Positions 47,745 to 62,088 of a stretch of DNA of 64,000 bases are shown piece after piece (positions within the stretch are counted from its first letter, which is position 1; every line of letters starts with the position of its first letter). The DNA lies in contig OX336354.1 of the NCBI GenBank assembly GCA_946902875.1, positions 10,761,247 through 10,825,246 on the forward strand. Direction: 5' to 3'. The stretch comes from Nematopogon swammerdamellus. Lineage: Eukaryota; Arthropoda; Insecta; Lepidoptera; Adelidae. The notes under the pieces were generated by a model that saw only the letters and a program-made list of their open reading frames with translations, searched no databases and had not been told where the DNA came from. The position numbers were made by a program, and so were the translations under genes.

Positions 47745-47931
47745 GCAGCAAGTGTGGCGCGGCGCGCGGCTGCGGTGCGGGTGTGATGGTGCGGCCGGCG
47801 GGGCTGGCGACGACGACGCTCGCGCTGCTGCCGCTGCTGCTGTGTCGCGCGGGCCGCTCCGCGTCACCGACGACCTCGCAGGACATCGACTCCGAGCTCG
47901 GTGTCGGCAAGGCGATCAACATCTTCATGAG
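47745..47931 (+). CDS. tsl: torso-like exon 1 (signal peptide)
   Basis: The coding part starts at ATG 47786 (MVRPAGLATTTLALLPLLLC...). The reason for this start is that TTTGCAG at 47738-47744 looks like a splice acceptor, so the upstream in-frame ATG at 47735 would be intronic and 47745-47785 would be 5' UTR joined to an unseen upstream exon. If no splice occurs there, the protein could gain 17 residues. The exon ends GKAINIFM-R in phase 2 before a GTCAGC donor. It is GC-rich, unlike its surroundings. Confidence 0.85.
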
Positions 47932-50900
47932 GTCAGCAGATGTCTGTCTACCGAACTTTGCTAACTCAAATATGAAATTCGGCGGCGGGTGGCCGAGTGG
48001 TTTGGGCTTCGGCTTCTCTTGCGAGAGATCCGACCGAGGTTCGAATCCAACCGGCGCGTGTACCAAAGAGTTTTGTCTTATTTGAAAAAAAAATACGTGC
48101 ATACCTTCATCCTTTGTACCGTGTGGGGCCGGTACTTTAAAATAATAGCCCCACTGCATCTCTCCCCGTGTATGTCGTAAAAGGCGACTAAGGGATATGA
48201 CTGCTTTCTTATATTACTAGGTGGTAGGGTGGTAGGGTTTAACCCGCCCGGGCTGATTGAAAGTTCGGTCGAAACGGCTATGTAAATAGTTTGTGTTTTC
48301 CGTCCAGTTCAGTGTAGCCGGCACGACCTAAGGGAAGTACTGATGTGGCACCAAGTTCACCCGGTGTTATGGGCTGACATCACGGATGTTGTAGATGATG
48401 TAGCCAACCGTGTCAGTTTCCATAAAAAAAATCCACTGCTCCATGGTTCGGATTCCATGTAAAAATGTAAGTACATCGACTTGACTGGAGGAAATAGCCT
48501 AAGGCAATAATAAGCCCGCCCTTGCCACGCATTAAGTGTGTATTATTATTATAATATAAATGCGACAACAACCTAAAATATGGACGACTGACTGGATTTG
48601 AATAAATGTGTTGTCAATATCAAATATTGGTGACTGATGTGTAGTGTGCGGCTGGAGTTGTCAAATAATATATTGCGAGCGAGAGTAAAGAAAGGGCGGG
48701 AATGTAAAAGTATCGGTTGTAAATACTTGGAATATCCTATTAAATCAGTACAGTATTACGGTTGATGTTGCAGATATGGCTACCTCAGTATCTGCATGCG
48801 CGTGGTGCCGCGCAACGACACGGAGGGCTGGGTGTTCCGCGAGCCGACCGTCAACGTGTTTCGAGACGTGGGCCGATTCTCACTGCAGCCGCGCACACGC
48901 AAACCAAAGACCGCCACGTTCGACGGAGACTTCCACATGGAGTTCTGCGATAACCTGAAGCAACTGCTGCAAGCTTACTTCAGGGACTTTAGCTTTGAGA
49001 GGTGCGTGTCTGTGCTTTATAAAGTGAAAGGTTATGATTTCACTTGCAAAGATTTCTATCTTTAAAACATAGTAGGTAAGTACTAGAAGATAGATGTGAT
49101 GACGGGATTTTTTCCAACTTACTTGACATTATCGTTATATTTTGGCAAATTTACACAATATCTTTATAAATTATAGCCTATGTGCTATTCTGATGTATAA
49201 GTGTATAAGCTATAGTACTGTAAAGTCTCATCAAAATCCGTTCAGTAGTTTTTGCGTGAGAGGAACAAAGATCCATACATACATCCATCCATACATCCAT
49301 ACATCCATCCATCCTCACAAACTTTACCGTTTATAATATCAGTAGGATTAATTTATGTTCAGCTCTAACTATTCAGAAAGTAAAATGCGGCTGCACCCTT
49401 TTGTGCAAATTTCAGATTGGAACGTCCGTGGCGCGCATTCACGGCCGGTTGGCCGACCGACATAATGGCGCGCAACCTCGGCATCAACTCGTCCTTCATC
49501 ACCGGCGACCACTGCTACGTGCTGATCAGGGTCTCCCGCTTCCGGGACTCGGGGCGACTGAGGGACCTGCCGCCCAACATCGCCGTCGAGGATGTCGTCT
49601 TCGATGCCATTCAACAGTCGGACATTGGCGACACAGTGGGCATAGCCGATTTTATAAGGAAATACGGATCGCACTATATAGCGTCCTACATTACCGGTAA
49701 CTCTCTTTATCAGGTGAGATTCTTTTGTGTTTGATTTGACTTCTCTGCTAACCTCATATGCCATTTAGCGTGATAGTGAGTAGCCTGTAGTTGATGGAAA
49801 GAATCAAGCTATCCGTAGATTATTTTTTTATTAAAATTGGTTCAGTGGTTCTCCAGTTGTAAGCGGACAGACAGACAGACAGACAGAAATCAGACGTTGG
49901 ATTTTATGGTAAGGAAAGGATTAATGAGCAATTTTATTCATATTTAGAGAAACAACAGTCTTGCCACTGAGATTTTAACTAAATTTTTAGCTACCAAATA
50001 ATAAGCTAAAAATTACCCAAATCTCTAGTTGCATTTTTCACAGTAAGAGGTAAAAGTTTTAAGCGGCGGGTGGCCGAGTGGTCTGGGCGTATCGGCTTCT
50101 CTTGCGAGAGGTCCGAGGTTCGAATCCGGTCGGAGTGTACCAATGAGTTTTTTCTGACACCTGCTGCTTCAACGTTCGGAACCGGTGTAAAACTGTAGGT
50201 ACCTTCCCTTGCCCCCTTACTACGTGGTAGGCTCAAATTGTAGCCGACAGGGTTGGTACCACCGTACTGGATGTATGATGGCCGCATAGCAGTCTCGGCT
50301 GTGTTCTCTAGTCCAGTATATCCAGCAATTCAAATGGGAGTCTCCGGTACGGCACCTACCTTCTGATATTGGCTAGTCGGAGCATGTGCTTTGGCCCCTC
50401 TGATTCAGTCACCCATACCGGATTACATAAAAAAAACTGGCCAATGGAAAAGAAGTAAATCGATTGAATGACTCTGACACTGAGGTGAGTGTAGGTACCT
50501 AAAATCTGGAAAAAATTCCTCTTCAATCCATAAAATACAAGAAAGAAGTGTGTCACTCCTCCAGTGGTCTGAGCAACCTGCTCTCGTAGTCCCATCCATT
50601 ATTTCAGTGCAATTATTTCTCTTGAGGCCTTTGCAAAGGCTATTGAATGTTAGTGTAAACATCATTCAACTCGTGCATATTTTGTAAATATTTCAGTTAC
50701 GTGCGATTTATTCTCTTCCAACCTCAACAGTATAGCAATGTGACACAGAAAGCATATTAATTGTGAAAACAGTTCAAGAATTATTTTGTTCCGGCTTTAG
50801 CCGATATTTATTAATTTATGCCCTTGCTCGCAATATTTCTATGGTATAGTGACGTCAGTATTCAAATCCTAAAGTCCCTTTAGCTCTAGTTCCGAACATG

Positions 50901-53900
50901 CATTATCGGGAAGTTGGTTGCTGATTCTCCACTTCAGTAAATAATGCCCGGTGGGGGTTTTTTTTTTTTATGGAAACTGACACGGTTGGCTGCATCACCT
51001 ACTACATCCGCGATATCAGTCCATAACTAACACCTTGGTGAATTAGAGGTGCCGTGTCAGTGCTTCCCTTCGGTCGTGCCGGCTACACTGAACTGAAAAC
51101 ACCAACTATTTAAATAGCCGCTTCAACCGATCTTTCATTCAGTGCAGTGGTCCAGCCCGGGCGGTTTGAACCCTATACCACCTAGTGTTGAGATAAGAAC
51201 GGAAGGAACCTACAGTTTTAGGTAGAATCCGAACCACGGTCAGCCTCCAACGGTCGAGCGGACACCGATCCAAGTACTGATCACGCCCAGGTGTGCTTAT
51301 GATCACGGCCGACCTCACCACTGAGCTAACAAGGCTGATTCCACTTTTCTTATGAGGTGCAGTACAATGGATGATGTGCCAAACGTGATGGTTGTCATCT
51401 CGCGGACTGTCGAAACGAGGTTCAATAGCAGGGGCGGCGCAAGGCGTGGGCGATAGCCCACGGCCTCGCGGCCCGAAGGGCCTCGGGCCTCGAAAGTTCA
51501 TGCAACTTTGATTAATGAAAAACATTCAGCAAGATCTATTAAAAGAGATCCCGAGTAAACATGTTTAAACTTAATCAAAGGCAAACTAAACCTTCCTATA
51601 AAGCCTTTATCCGACACAAGATGGGAAAGCATGACAGAGGCAGTGAATATTGCAATAATTCAGTATATAAAGTGTTTCGTTAGTCATGTCATTAACTTCA
51701 GGAGGGTTACATACACACTCAAATAAACACTTTACGTAAGAAAAAAAACATATGTTTATAGGAGGATTTTTTCTCCTAACAAAAAAATAAAAATAAAATC
51801 AAATAAGTAGCTGTAAAAACCAATCATAGTGACCTTGTGACTTACTTACAAAAAACATCTGTTCTGCGTTTGAACATAGTACGGTCATTGACCCCGTACA
51901 ATGCAAGTTACCTAAACATTAACACATGTTTTGTTAAATTTCTCGAAAAGTAGATAATACTATAAATATATAATATTTTTTTTTTGCGTAACATGTTTAT
52001 TTGAGTGTGTATGTAACCCTCCCGAAGTTAATGACATGACTAACGAAACACCTTATATTGCTGTAATATTGCGATTTGATGATGTTGTTGAATGTATTGA
52101 ATATTGGCAAAATTTATAGGGCCTCGCAAAATTTATCTTGCCCACATCAAATTAAGTTCATGCCCCGCCACTGTTCAATAGAGCATGATATGAATACATT
52201 GCAGGCAATGATATTATAAGTTAAAAGGAGGTAGATAGGTTATCTGAGCTCCCAAGCGGCACATTAAACTCAAGACCACAGTCCTGTCTGAAGTTAGTCG
52301 CCCAACTACGCACGCGTTCGGACCGCTAACCACGAGCCGCTAACACATCGAAAATGCCGTCGTGTGTAATGAGATTCTGCACTAATTCTAATACTAATTG
52401 GAATAAGACTATTCGAGTCGGCGCATCACTTATAGTTCTTCCTCTCAACTTTTCAAGGACGTGCCATGTGTGAGCACTGAATGTCATATAGATAACCTAT
52501 CTTTCCTCAAATATCATTGATTGCAGGTATTTGTGTTCTCGCGTGCTGTCTACTCCAGACTGAAGGAGCGCATGAAGAGCCAGGGTGTCTCGGACTGGAC
52601 CGCGAGCGAGTTAAACAATTTCTTTTCACCGCTCGCCGCCGAGCACATCGGACAAGTAAAGGTTAGACGCTGCCTCGCACTTGTGCAGTGCTAGTCGTTC
52701 TTTATCAACAATGTGGTACACGCTCTATTTCAATATGAAATACAAAATAAATAGACCTAGACATTTTATATAAAATAAACCTAAAATACTTATTACATTT
52801 ATGAAACTATATCTATTTTAAGTACCTACTTAAAATATTCCCAAAAAAGTACAACATCCAATCTATCATCCATCCTTTTGTTTCATAACTGGATGGACAA
52901 GTATGTATGTATGTATATTTATTTGTATATTATATTCTATATTTTAGTATTTTATAATATGTATTAACACAAGTATGGCTTTGTATTCTTATTAAGTATT
53001 ATTTTATCTTCAATTCTCACGCTCAACTCTTTAATACCTACTTGCATTCCACTGTATTAATTGAATCTCAAACATCCAAATGTTGACTGTAAGAAATCTC
53101 TGTAAGGGATAAGTCCGCCCTTGCACTTTATGTAAATTTTCTAATGTTCCTTGGAACAATAAAGCATTTTCTATCTATTTCTATCTATGAGACGCAACGA
53201 TCCAATTATTTAAAAGGGACATGCACCAAGAGTCAAATTGGCATGGCATTCAGAAACCCACAAAACCACAAAAGTTCATGCGTGATGTTAAAGTTAATCT
53301 ATAATTGTGTGCCAACCATGTCTCATGTATTTCCTTCCTATAAAAGTGCGACCGCACTATGCGACGCACAAAATTGTTCATCTGCCGCGCAGTGCGGTTG
53401 TTGTTTTTGTTGTTGTCAATGAAAATATTGACGGCCCGTGAGGCGCCGCGGCCACTCCGCTGTAATGCAGTTGCAGCCTAGTGCCGGTGCACTCTAAAAC
53501 AACATATAAACATGAAAACATTTCACATTGTTGAATAAAGAATTACATTCAAGCACTCTACAGCTGAATCCACTTTAAACATTGAATACAATACAATATT
53601 ATGTACTTTCTAATCTTTTCATAAATAGACAGTGTTTCAAAAATGATGGTAACTCTACCACCATAAATGAACCACTGTAACTATACAAATTGCTAGCAAA
53701 ATGCCAAAGAGCTTACTACTCTACCTAAAGTGGATGAGGCAGAAACATTTTCTCAGTGTGCATGCGTAAGTAGAAGTGTCGATCATCCTTAACCACTAAA
53801 TTAAGCACCTTGAAAATTTTGGCACCGTTACTTACTCTTAAAAATCTACGGACGACCTTATATTCATATCGGTATGATCTGATTAATGGGCTAGACTTTA

Positions 53901-56900
53901 CAACCAAGGTAGGCGTGTAGTGTGTACCAATCGGATGACGGGACGGTTCAAAAAGCAATGTGCGGTGTGTTGCACAGTGTTGTCGCCCTCCTTGCTAAGT
54001 TAAGAGTCTATACTACCTCACATTGCTTCGCAAGTTGAACAGTTAGGTACTAACTAATGCTAGGTATTTTATTTAGGGAAACATAATTATTCTTGATCGA
54101 AAAAAATTGCAGTTACCTCCGAACCGTCAATGAGACCGCTAGTATTTAATAAATACTTACTTTATTTTAGATCAGGCAACTTTGCATAATATAATAACTA
54201 ATCTCAATATAATGAAGGTCCTATGCGTTTTACATTTTAAAAATTAACCATTATTTTAATTCAAAACACCGAAAAAACTACAAAATTTAGACTTACGATT
54301 AAACCATTGAGTGCTTCTGTCCCTTTCGTTCTCTCACCGATTCTCTATCGCCCAATGTTAAGTTAAGAGTCTATATAATTAGTGTTATATAGACTCTTAA
54401 CTTAAATGGTCCTGGTTTTAATAATGAATGGTGTGTATGGAACTTACTAAGACTGGGACTACATGTGGTGGGCGGTTCCGAACCGAACCTGAGCCGATTT
54501 GGTGATGGAACCGGCCACATGTGGTCCCAGCATAAATGATTGTGGTATTTGGTGTCCATGCGGTGTGGTAATACTTAAGTTTCATTAGATTTCATTGAGT
54601 GGTTTTCTAACAACCGTCCGACAAACACTTATAGACCGGACCATGTATAAAAGGAACCTTAACAGTGTAGCCATAATACGTAGGTACCATAGAGAAATAA
54701 TATACGTCTATGGTAGGTACACTTTATAGCACTGTAGGGAGGTTAGGTATTGATAATAATTTTATTACACATATTTTAAATTAAGTAGGTATGCTAAGTA
54801 TTTGCTTGAATAATTTGTGTCATTGTAAAATATTATATGTAGTGAAATGTATTAAAATGAACACTGAGAAAATACGTGCGGGCAGCGTCTTTCATTTGCG
54901 AAAAGCGAAATTTAATTCAACAGACTGGAGAAGACACAACTTCGCTTTAATTTTACTTGATCCTAAAATGTATTTTGGACCCACTGATAGACCTCAATTA
55001 ATAAACTGCAATTTATGAAAAAAAAAATGTGTACAACTTCAACTTTAATGTGTGACTTCTAGGCAATTACTTAAATTTTTCATCGAGGGTTTATTTTATT
55101 TATTTGGAAAATACTAAGTAAATAGATTACTTACATATCAATAGAAAAGTATATAAAAGGTAATAAATATACACAAAAAATTCTATGTGCTTTGTTTATT
55201 ATTGCCAAAAAATCAATTAGTGGGTTCAAAATTTCAAGTCTCTTTCACACTGAACAAAGAAAAGTATATCAAAATAAATGTATTTTAGGTATTTGTCTTC
55301 TCTAGAATGGCTTACAGTCTGATAAAAGAGCGTTTAAAGGCCAAAGGTGTCACCGATATCTCACCAAAGGAGTTGGAATCCTACTTCAGTCCGTGGCATA
55401 CTAGACATATCGGACAAGTGAAGGTAAAAGACAATATTTTGATATGATAGCAAATAAATGTACCGGCCCCACTGTACCGTGTGGGGCCGGTACTTAAAAA
55501 GAATAGCCTCACTGCATCTCTCCCCGTGCATGTCGTAAAAGGCGACTAAGGGATAAGAACAAGATGCCGTGCTAAAGGGCGACAGGCTCGCAACCTCTCA
55601 CCTTGGCATGGTACTTCCACCGAGTCATGCAGCAGGTGCGTGCCTTACTTGCTGCTTGATCGATTGAATCTTGTTCGAATAATTTGCGAAACGTGGTGGT
55701 CGGTGTTGTGCTGTAATTTACCAGAGTTCTTGCAGCACAACACCGATTACTCTGCTTACCCCGATGGTCGGGATTCAGCGTGTGTGATATGTATGTATGT
55801 AAATGTAACTTTTTATTTTATTGGAAAATTTATTGTAGTCAATTGGAAATGATTCGGTATACAATGCTTCTTAGGCCAATTATTGTATTTTTAGAAATGT
55901 TACCTAGGCACTTTATGAAATTCTGAAAATTTTATGGGTTAGTAGAAATAATAATATATCTTTGATTCACACAAAAAAATATAAGGTACAAGAAAAGTCG
56001 AGGTTAGTTTAATTAAAGTATAATAATAATCTAACCTTTTACAAAAGGACCAAATTAAAAATTATATTGATGCAGTCACTTTTAAAGCCAAAATTTACAA
56101 TCAGCTGCTGACATTTAGGTATAAAAGACTATTCGCTTACCTATGAAATGTAATAAAATTTGATGATTTTGCAGCAGAAAAAAAATTATTTTATTTTGTG
56201 AAAGAAACTTGTGAGAAACTGGGTTTGATTCTTATAATTTCAAGGGCATACTTTTTAAATGATTAACATTCATTATTTTCATGTGTCATTTACTAATATT
56301 ATTAAAAATAATTAATATATGTAGAAAACATTATTTTCTTTTTTTTATTTACCAAATTTTTCTTTTTCTTTCTCCATCTAGGCCCATACCTAACAACCAT
56401 TCAAGAATGTATTTACTATTTTCGTCCTTTGCAAACTAAAACCCCCGTACTTCAACGTAACCACTTACAATCTTTTTCACTCTAGGGTTAACAAAATAAA
56501 GTCTGTAAAGTAATTTTTTAGTTATTTTCAACCCTCAACCCTGTTTTTAAAACTATCTGTCACTGCTACCTATCTCCTGATATTCCTAAATTTTTTTTAA
56601 AAATACCATAGGTAGTTGAATGTCTACCTACCTACCTACCCCATTAAGCACACTTAGCTAATTTTAGCAGATTCTCTCTCTCACACGATGTAATGTCACC
56701 AGGTGGCCAGCGGCAACAAGACCGTGGAGGCCTGGGCAGCCAAGCGGCTCCGAACCCAGTACTACATCTTCACCTACCCGAGCCTGCTCAAGCTTCACAG
56801 CGAGCCCGCGATGCTGCGCAGTCTCAACACGTTGCTAGGCAACGAAGCGCTCCTCCAACTGGAACTCAAGACCCTCTCACCCGCTTTCAAGGACGAGAAG

Positions 56901-56963
56901 AAGAAGCAGTGGTTCGAAGAAGTCATAGACAATTATTTGAAGCTTTGGGAGAGCAACATGTGA
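47786..56963 (+). CDS. tsl: Torso-like, MACPF-domain secreted protein (whole gene)
   Basis: Coding exons: 47786-47931, 48774-49001, 49416-49713, 52527-52661 (4a) or 55289-55423 (4b), and 56703-56963. Phases are 2, 2, 0 and 0; every intron begins GT and ends AG. The product is 355 residues, close to the family's usual size. Residues 1 to about 25 form a signal peptide (LATTTLALLPLLLC core). The MACPF fold covers most of the rest, with its signature at 208-212 (YGSHY). NxS/T sequons lie at N63, N149 and N274. The block RVVPRNDTEGWVFREPTVNV and the whole order of motifs match insect Torso-like. From family knowledge it is a secreted protein needed for activation of the Torso receptor at the embryo poles, with further roles in growth and developmental timing; no membrane pore activity is established. 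Two exon 4 versions make this copy unusual. The introns carry SINEs and MITEs. Confidence 0.93.
47981..48093 (+). mobile_element. SINE head only, tRNA-derived (family A)
   Basis: A box TGGCCGAGTGG, B box GGTTCGAATCC and an A run at 48085-48093 directly after the head; the family A body is missing. It lies in torso-like intron 1, 50 bp after the donor. The acceptor ends do not pair, so it is not a tRNA gene. Confidence 0.8.
48117..48196 (+). mobile_element. Retroposon family C, 5' fragment
   Basis: TACCGTGTGGGGCCGGTACT to GGCGACTAAGGGATA, cut off there and followed by unrelated sequence. In torso-like intron 1. Confidence 0.75.
48209..48431 (+). mobile_element. SINE family B, headless copy
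   Basis: GGTAGGGTTTAACCCGCCCG to the A run at 48423-48431. A short block is duplicated at its start (GGTGGTAGGGT). Third retroposon in torso-like intron 1. Confidence 0.85.
48774..49001 (+). CDS. tsl: torso-like exon 2
   Basis: Acceptor GTTGCAG, then A completing an Arg codon, YGYLSICMRVVPRNDTEGWV..., through KTATFDGDFHMEFCDN to FRDFSFE-R in phase 2 before GTGCGT. Residues 50-124. Contains the N63 sequon. Confidence 0.93.
49135..49345 (+). repeat. Retroposon tail with ATCC microsatellite
   Basis: AAAATCCGTTCAGTAGTTTT then TGCGTGAGAG and CATC/CATA repeats at 49270-49316. In torso-like intron 2. Confidence 0.6.
49416..49713 (+). CDS. tsl: torso-like exon 3 (MACPF signature)
   Basis: Acceptor ATTTCAG, then R/LERPWRAFTAGWPTDIM..., DHCYVLIRVSRFRDSG, and IADFIRKYGSHYIASYITG with the MACPF signature Y-G-[ST]-H-Y. 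It ends SLYQ in phase 0 before GTGAGA. Residues 126-224. The exon is followed almost at once by a retroposon tail (49730). Confidence 0.93.
49730..49920 (+). mobile_element. Retroposon tail (family E)
   Basis: Same blocks as 13610-13830, with GACA repeats at 49868-49886. Starts 17 bp after the exon 3 donor of torso-like. Confidence 0.65.
50063..50436 (+). mobile_element. SINE family A, full length
   Basis: The most complete copy. The tRNA-derived head has A box TGGCCGAGTGG (50071-50081) and B box GGTTCGAATCC (50117-50127). The linker GAGTTTTTTCTGACACCTGC follows, then the family body, ending in an A run at 50436. The head resembles a class II (Leu/Ser-like) tRNA. In torso-like intron 3. Confidence 0.88.
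50956..51342 (-). mobile_element. SINE family B, near full length
   Basis: T run at 50958-50969, complete body, then the 5S-like block (complement, ATCCAAGTACTGATCACGCC) and tRNA-like start (complement, ACCACTGAGCTAACAAGGCTG, cut to the A-box region). Confirms the composite head seen at 35777. In torso-like intron 3. Confidence 0.85.
51429..52173. mobile_element. hAT-type MITE with TSD TTCAATAG
   Basis: Left end CAGGGGCGGC, right end GCCCCGCCACTG, flanked by TTCAATAG at 51421-51428 and 52174-52181. The 8-bp duplication and CAGGGGCG end are typical of hAT elements. 745 bp including a nested family I element. In torso-like intron 3. Confidence 0.9.
51664..52068. mobile_element. Family I DNA element, nested
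   Basis: ATAAAGTGTTTCGTTAGTCA and TGACTAACGAAACACCTTAT ends, arms over 60 bp. It carries the same internal blocks as 35163 and 35547 and sits inside the hAT-type MITE. Confidence 0.85.
52527..52661 (+). CDS. tsl: torso-like exon 4a
   Basis: 135 nt, 45 codons, phase 0 at both ends: VFVFSRAVYSRLKERMKSQG...HIGQVK. Acceptor GATTGCAG, donor GTTAGA. It encodes residues 225-269, directly after the signature, a region that in MACPF folds leads into the second helical cluster. GC content resembles exons 2, 3 and 5. Competes with, or adds to, exon 4b. Confidence 0.9.
53065..53190 (+). mobile_element. LINE 3' tail (family D)
   Basis: Relative of 8207-8345, ending GGAACAATAAAGCATTTTCT with CTAT repeats. 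In the intron between exons 4a and 4b. The rest of that intron (52662-55288) is AT-rich with short frames only. Confidence 0.65.
54453..54531. repeat. Short inverted repeat (possible small MITE)
   Basis: CTGGGACTACATGTGG, then GCGGTTCCGAACCG, against GGAACCGGCCACATGTGGTC then CCAG. Arms of about 27 bp. Between torso-like exons 4a and 4b. Confidence 0.6.
55289..55423 (+). CDS. tsl: torso-like exon 4b (alternative to 4a)
   Basis: 135 nt, 45 codons, phase 0 at both ends: VFVFSRMAYSLIKERLKAKG...HIGQVK. Acceptor TATTTTAG, donor GTAAAA. Aligned without gaps to exon 4a, 26 of 45 residues are identical, with both ends (VFVFSR and HIGQVK) fully kept and most change in the middle (WTASELNNFF against ISPKELESYF). 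There is no stop, and both splice sites are good, so it is unlikely to be a dead copy. It is more AT-rich than 4a. Use of 4b in place of 4a keeps the frame; use of both would add 45 residues and also keep it. Confidence 0.82.
55472..55803 (+). mobile_element. Retroposon family C, full-length type copy
   Basis: TACCGTGTGGGGCCGGTACT to GTGATATGTATGTATGTAA. It starts about 50 bp after the exon 4b donor of torso-like. A short duplication of the start (ACCGGCCCCAC) precedes it. Confidence 0.85.
56703..56963 (+). CDS. tsl: torso-like last coding exon
   Basis: Acceptor TGTCACCAG, then VASGNKTVEAWAAKRLRTQY..., TLSPAFKDEKKKQWFEEVID and the end NYLKLWESNM, stop TGA 56961-56963. Residues 270-355, with the N274 sequon. 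C-terminal helical part of the protein. Confidence 0.93.
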   Translation: MASGNKTVEAWAAKRLRTQYYIFTYPSLLKLHSEPAMLRSLNTLLGNEALLQLELKTLSPAFKDEKKKQWFEEVIDNYLKLWESNM

Positions 56964-61945: not shown

Positions 61946-62088
61946 ATGGTGATAGTAAAACGTATGTACGCATTAGTGCAGTTATGGATATTGTGTGCAC
62001 CGTTTGGGCTTGCTACGAGAACGGATTACGAGAACGAGGCCGACACTCTTCTGCCCACTATTGGTAATGCAATAGATATTTTTGCAAA
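61946..62088 (+). CDS. First coding exon of a tandem torso-like paralog (partial)
   Basis: ATG 61946 opens MVIVKRMYALVQLWILCAPF..., a clear signal peptide, followed by an acidic linker (DYENEADTLLP) and TIGNAIDIFA-K. The exon stops in phase 2 before a GTGAGT donor, the same phase as torso-like exon 1. The end G-N-A-I-D-I-F-x-K matches G-K-A-I-N-I-F-x-R of that exon, at the same distance from the splice site. Exon length (143 nt against 146 nt) and layout agree. I infer a second torso-like gene, same strand, starting about 5 kb after the first; the remaining exons would lie beyond 64000. The other possibility is an orphan exon from a partial duplication. Confidence 0.75.

Follow-up and report, generated by a model that had tools for sequence, protein, structure and literature searches.

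Does the torso-like (tsl) gene of a moth carry two usable versions of a single coding exon, and how would such a pair be spliced? The question is raised by a 64,000-nucleotide stretch of the Nematopogon swammerdamellus genome (contig OX336354.1; hereafter the window, from whose first letter positions are counted), which contains a complete tsl coding gene on the + strand. A preliminary description, made from the letters alone, had placed two copies of exon 4, termed 4a and 4b, in tandem between exons 3 and 5 and had read them as mutually exclusive. The coordinates, 135-nt length, phase 0, GT-AG borders, and gap-free identity at 26 of 45 residues that it gave for the pair were all correct. We consider it likely that the pair is an ancient tandem duplication whose copies are alternatively included and tune TMH2 of the Torso-like (Tsl) protein; in relatives that form pores, TMH2 is the second of the two hairpins that insert by unfolding into the membrane.

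The predicted protein has 355 residues with either version of exon 4. Its full-length best matches were lepidopteran, at 68-83% identity (best E 8.9e-200), identifying the gene as an orthologue of torso-like; the named lepidopteran matches were mostly called torso-like, and the remainder were unnamed products or hypothetical proteins. Splice sites in the window gene are GT-AG throughout (U12 sites were not scored), and the frame is kept in all four combinations, with 4a, 4b, both, or neither.

Chance similarity of 4a and 4b was rejected by their nucleotide and residue identity and by codon shuffling. The copies share 74 of 135 nucleotides, with matches at codon positions 1, 2, and 3 numbering 26, 32, and 16 of 45, against shuffled-codon means of 11.6, 11.9, and 11.2; the third-position count exceeds its mean only moderately, at least 16 matches being reached in 6% of shuffles. 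The amino-acid identity of codon-shuffled pairs averaged 3 of 45, with a maximum of 10 in 500 shuffles. Synonymous sites are near saturation (proportion of differing synonymous sites, pS, 0.84; nonsynonymous distance, dN, 0.46; synonymous distance, dS, not estimable), and together with the intact frame this indicates that the two copies share a common and old origin and that purifying selection maintains the amino acids of both. Conservation, the exon 4 tree, and distances between species likewise led us to reject a recent duplication or a decaying copy for the whole lineage. The earlier view of two selected alternative exons rather than a decaying duplicate thus holds, both copies being intact, saturated at synonymous sites, and conserved in Lepidoptera; the doubt about 4b that it implied is reversed, since 4b is the slow, conserved copy. 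We found no third copy of exon 4 by tblastn of the window or by a six-frame search of the species' own genome (699 Mb, 39 contigs) with 4a at E <= 0.001, although the latter search was too insensitive to detect the diverged exon 4 of a tsl paralogue, which was recovered with paralogue queries.

Both ends of the exon had also been described as fully conserved. The 3' ends are indeed identical in the window, where HIGQVK closes both 4a (52644-52661) and 4b (55406-55423), but this is partly peculiar to the species: in other Lepidoptera, 4a mostly ends in HVGAVK and 4b in HIGQIK. The common HIGQVK could reflect local conversion or convergence. Gene conversion between the two window copies is not favored, as each copy sits in its own clade.

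A maximum-likelihood tree was built from 61 unique exon 4 sequences, on 45 columns only and with 19 hand-picked outgroups. In it, 4a and 4b formed separate clades (ultrafast bootstrap support, UFBoot, 85 and 99), and the two window copies fell one in each. Judged from these sequences, the duplication is therefore older than the split of this lineage from the other moths and butterflies sampled. No caddisfly record was recognized among the matches listed, and the duplication is dated within the sampled Lepidoptera.

The two copies have evolved at different rates. Among 12 species with both, 4a was the more divergent copy in all 66 pairs, which are not independent of one another, and also in all 6 of a hand-chosen set of pairs without overlap, with mean per-residue differences of 0.297 for 4a vs. 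0.095 for 4b (~3-fold). Over its first 60 residues, constitutive exon 5 has the same value as 4b (0.095), and exon 3 is less conserved (0.136, 45 pairs). A tryptophan at position 36 (Trp36) was found in 89 of 90 records from other insects and in 20 of 20 4b sequences but in 0 of 35 4a sequences (90 of the 92 non-lepidopteran records were used here, two not fitting the pattern, and the truncated record P0136 was left out). Mean closeness to these outgroups was 24.2 of 45 for 4b vs. 22.4 for 4a; in the window species, 4b was the closer copy for only 38 of the 90 outgroup records, so that polarity rests mainly on Trp36. Both copies have moved, as 4b has derived states of its own (Lys39 and Glu30). 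Of the two versions, 4b is the more conserved and probably the more ancestral, and 4a is the faster-changing one that lost a nearly invariant tryptophan.

Records from relatives show which forms are on file. Our protein database search listed the best 120 of 296 matches, with lepidopteran Tsl on top, and another search, directed at the part encoded by exon 4, yielded 89 proteins. For 44 lepidopteran records (P0001-P0040, P0068, P0121, P0122, and P0136), six of which were placed in Lepidoptera by sequence, we determined which version of exon 4 was present. Twenty-four contained 4a only, eight 4b only, 11 both, and one neither, a tally that gives no frequencies because the database was collapsed at 90% identity and only the best 120 of 296 matches were listed. 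Two of the 4a-only records end early, and the truncated P0136 is counted as 4a. Records with both copies carry 4a then 4b in tandem and in frame; they include P0121, a gene model that fuses two genes, and P0122, which is partial. Euphydryas editha and Epargyreus clarus are each represented by 4a, 4b, and double records, Bombyx mandarina by 4a and double records, and Battus philenor by 4a and exon-less records; several of these records differ by one block of exactly 45 residues. These forms, 4a, 4b, and 4a+4b, are also found among the predicted lepidopteran torso-like isoforms X1-X3 in public databases, where they are record names only, without description or function. The sequences are thus already public as predicted isoforms, and the interpretation is new.

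Two records, P0006 (both copies) and P0033 (4a only), are identical except for 4b and come from a source tagged lgn. Their contigs measure 2,352 bases and at most 1,356 bases, while the same exons span 9.2 kb in the window. For contigs this short that contain the whole frame, the simplest explanation is spliced RNA of one species, an intronless copy being a less simple one. RNA-like contigs were seen for 4a-only records and not for 4b-only ones; both single forms exist as records of relatives. Outside Lepidoptera, exactly 45 residues separate the signature strand from the following SG motif in 90 of 92 records (one of the other two has 46 residues, and one could not be read); in Drosophila bipectinata, for instance, the record (P0128) has a single 45-residue segment at the exon 4 place and, unlike lepidopteran tsl, no second one.

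How are the two copies combined? A published human atlas takes a read joining two candidate exons as grounds to reject mutual exclusion unless the frame shifts (PMC5740500), and the devices described for enforcing exclusion are an intron that is too short (<50 nt), U2/U12 mismatch, a frameshift, and competing RNA pairing (PMC5740500, PMC6071210). Strict mutual exclusion, in which each mRNA would contain exactly one of 4a and 4b through competing RNA pairings or repressors, agrees with the structure of the pair, as the exons are adjacent, internal, and homologous, of equal length and the same phase, and alike without gaps; exactly one copy is present in 32 of the 44 lepidopteran records, and both single forms are listed for Epargyreus and Euphydryas. 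We nevertheless judge it unlikely. Eleven of the 44 records join 4a to 4b in frame, including P0006 on its 2,352-base contig, and one skips both; as 135 is a multiple of three, joining both copies shifts no frame; and the 4a-4b intron is too long for steric exclusion at 2,627 nt. Paired intronic sequences that could enforce exclusion, which the preliminary description suggested looking for, did not emerge either: among 15 pairs of 300-nt regions flanking exons 3, 4a, 4b, and 5, none stood out from 40 shuffles each (best z -1.69, 3/40 as low), in what is a crude test on one genome. Intron sequence upstream of 4a showed no similarity to that upstream of 4b (175/200 shuffles as high), and similarity between the downstream flanks was weak (7/200 as high). 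Judged from the records of relatives, "differentially included tandem exons" describes the pair better than "mutually exclusive exons" does.

That one of the exons is a relic, rarely or never used and surviving by chance, would fit the 4b acceptor tract, with 9 of 20 pyrimidines vs. 10 to 13 in the four other tsl acceptors, and the divergence of window 4b from nine complete double records (nine of the 11), which at 0.244 exceeds that of exons 3 and 5 (0.154 and 0.158; 4a, 0.346). This explanation is very improbable, however, given that both copies are intact and recognizable as 4a and 4b here and in other Lepidoptera with both, that they retain 58% amino-acid identity despite synonymous saturation, and that 4b is nearly invariant among Lepidoptera other than the window species (mean p-distance 0.066). 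We give hardly any credence to constitutive double inclusion, under which a Tsl with two TMH2-like segments would be the main form and the single forms minor; the 11 double records, one on an RNA-like contig, speak for it, but 32 of 44 records are single-copy, five of the six sequence-placed, lgn-tagged Lepidoptera-like records are 4a only, and the 45 residues found in 90 of 92 other-insect records imply that the fold needs no doubled segment. We infer that both exons are used in N. swammerdamellus as well.

What the exchanged segment does depends on its place in the protein. The exon 4 segment lies directly after the MACPF signature, a position that the preliminary description had assigned correctly. 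The signature is Y(F)-G-T(S)-H-x7-G-G (PMC5483515); in the window Tsl it reads YGSH-x7-GN, with Asn at the second Gly. Working from an alignment of 39 hand-picked proteins, which we used for structures and invariant columns, we obtained a PF01823 match at E up to 0.1 for 31 of the 39 Tsl homologues, and the predicted fold of E. editha Tsl isoforms matched MACPF structures, a likeness to pore-forming MACPF proteins. When PDB sequences were searched with the single protein, one match alone emerged, and it looked unrelated (E 0.25). The Tsl models suggest that the last part of the signature strand and the helix cluster behind it, TMH2 by topology, are both encoded by exon 4. The predicted Tsl cluster, between the signature strand and the glycine-motif stretch, is placed like TMH2 of pleurotolysin B, the pore-former in which TMH2 controls sheet opening (PMC4318580); in Tsl, unlike there, the cluster would be exchangeable by splicing. 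Separately, we observed that the S-G-N-x5-W motif at the start of exon 5 (56703 onward, VASGNKTVEAW) occurs without change in all 39 aligned Tsl proteins. The GGXnW tryptophan is said in a review (PMC5483515) to be absent from Tsl; by sequence it may be present, with Ser for the first Gly.

The fourth coding exon of tsl underwent an ancient tandem duplication, and we propose that its two 45-residue versions are alternatively included, 4a alone, 4b alone, or, in some transcripts, both in a row. As each version would encode the signature-strand end and TMH2, splicing would swap, double, or delete TMH2 while the remaining protein stayed constant, and the swap may alter Tsl docking or insertion at membranes or the eggshell. 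We offer as a tentative and rather doubtful extension that splicing exchanges, doubles, or removes a membrane-inserting TMH2, a membrane-competent 4b with Trp36 standing against a 4a retuned for another partner or compartment, so as to split eggshell and embryo from hormonal and growth roles.

Several observations weigh against the proposal. Named lepidopteran records are mostly gene predictions, and none of the six sequence-placed lgn records is 4b-only. Window 4a is about equally far from the 4b (0.356) and the 4a (0.346) of other species, so its placement is less clean than that of 4b, and neither window copy is clearly nearer to other orders (22.3 vs. 22.6 of 45). The window protein scores below the Pfam PF01823 gathering cut-off (16.0 and 13.7 vs. 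21.5 bits), the structure models are of E. editha isoforms with mean predicted local distance difference test (pLDDT) values of 72 and 66, and the placement of TMH2 relies on topology and on a sequence match that is weak (E 0.21) rather than on residue-level superposition. Finally, pore formation by Tsl is unproven.

Exchange of one protein segment through tandem homologous exons, a trick known in general, occurs in insect genes such as Mhc, Dscam1, N-cadherin, and nAChR alpha6, whose duplicated exons are mutually exclusive. The tsl exons resemble these systems in arrangement and differ from them in that double-inclusion and double-skip forms are on record and no exclusion device was found. 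In agreement with the preliminary description, which knew of no account of such isoforms, we found none in the open-access full-text literature searched (subscription papers and preprints were not covered).

Drosophila Torso-like is an orthologous secreted protein of the MACPF kind that localizes Torso activation and has been proposed to act in timing and body size independently of Torso (PMC6303783); its mode of action, as a pore, a secretion aid, or something else, is debated (PMC6303783, PMC5483515). Unlike in the fly, the embryonic role of Torso is uncertain in Lepidoptera, tsl being expressed in Pararge aegeria oogenesis with no clear tor or trk (PMC3654919), and the isoforms may thus serve roles outside terminal patterning. 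What Lepidoptera have preserved amounts to a segment-swap experiment, placed where sheet opening is governed in a perforin relative that has been studied. Comparison of the natural 4a, 4b, 4a+4b, and exon-less forms would be a direct test of TMH2 in Tsl function and could show which forms serve the egg, embryo, prothoracic gland, or blood.

Table 1. Coding exons of tsl, the intron between the exon 4 copies, and the neighboring gene in the window
Feature	Position	Strand	Remarks
tsl exon 1	47786..47931	+	Signal-peptide-like start and beginning of mature protein; window gene model
tsl exon 2	48774..49001	+	Gene model; butterfly Tsl match in own genome, 83% identity
tsl exon 3	49416..49713	+	Last part is the MACPF signature stretch YGSHYIASYITGNSLYQ; gene model and butterfly Tsl match
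tsl exon 4a	52527..52661	+	135 nt, phase 0; putative TMH2-region segment, fast-evolving version
Intron 4a-4b	52662..55288	+	2,627 nt
tsl exon 4b	55289..55423	+	135 nt, phase 0; slow-evolving version with the FSPW tryptophan of other insects
tsl exon 5	56703..56963	+	First residues VASGNKTVEAW, holds stop codon; gene model and butterfly Tsl match
Second, divergent torso-like gene, first exon	61946-62088	+	Tandem, 3' of tsl

A search of the species' own genome with a butterfly Tsl gave seven matches, all in tsl or in the second gene 3' of it. This paralogue runs past the window to position 68440 in the window frame, with exon matches near 64242, 65189, 66127, and 68186. Its single exon 4 match, judged by the flanking AG and GT, is also a 135-nt phase-0 exon, so the exon 4 borders probably predate the gene duplication; the exon 4 pair itself was seen in tsl only. 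The paralogue is widespread in Lepidoptera, as we found 40 such proteins, two of them unnamed and every named one lepidopteran. The paralogues of Euphydryas, Bombyx mandarina, and Plutella are among several lying on a contig equal in size to the tsl contig of the same species. The Spodoptera exigua paralogue shares about 31% identity with the window Tsl. The S. exigua record P0121 is a 630-residue predicted fusion of tsl and the downstream paralogue in which the signature segment is missing; it probably reflects an error in the gene model.

By eye, we also noted a near-perfect inverted repeat (TTAAGTTAAGAGTCTATAT...ATATAGACTCTTAACTTAA) at about 54355-54405 in the 4a-4b intron, possibly a small mobile element, with a partial copy near 54000. 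Two similar tRNA-like repeats (GGTGGCCGAGTGG...), at about 50060-50140 and 47980-48060, are possibly tRNA-derived short interspersed elements (SINEs).

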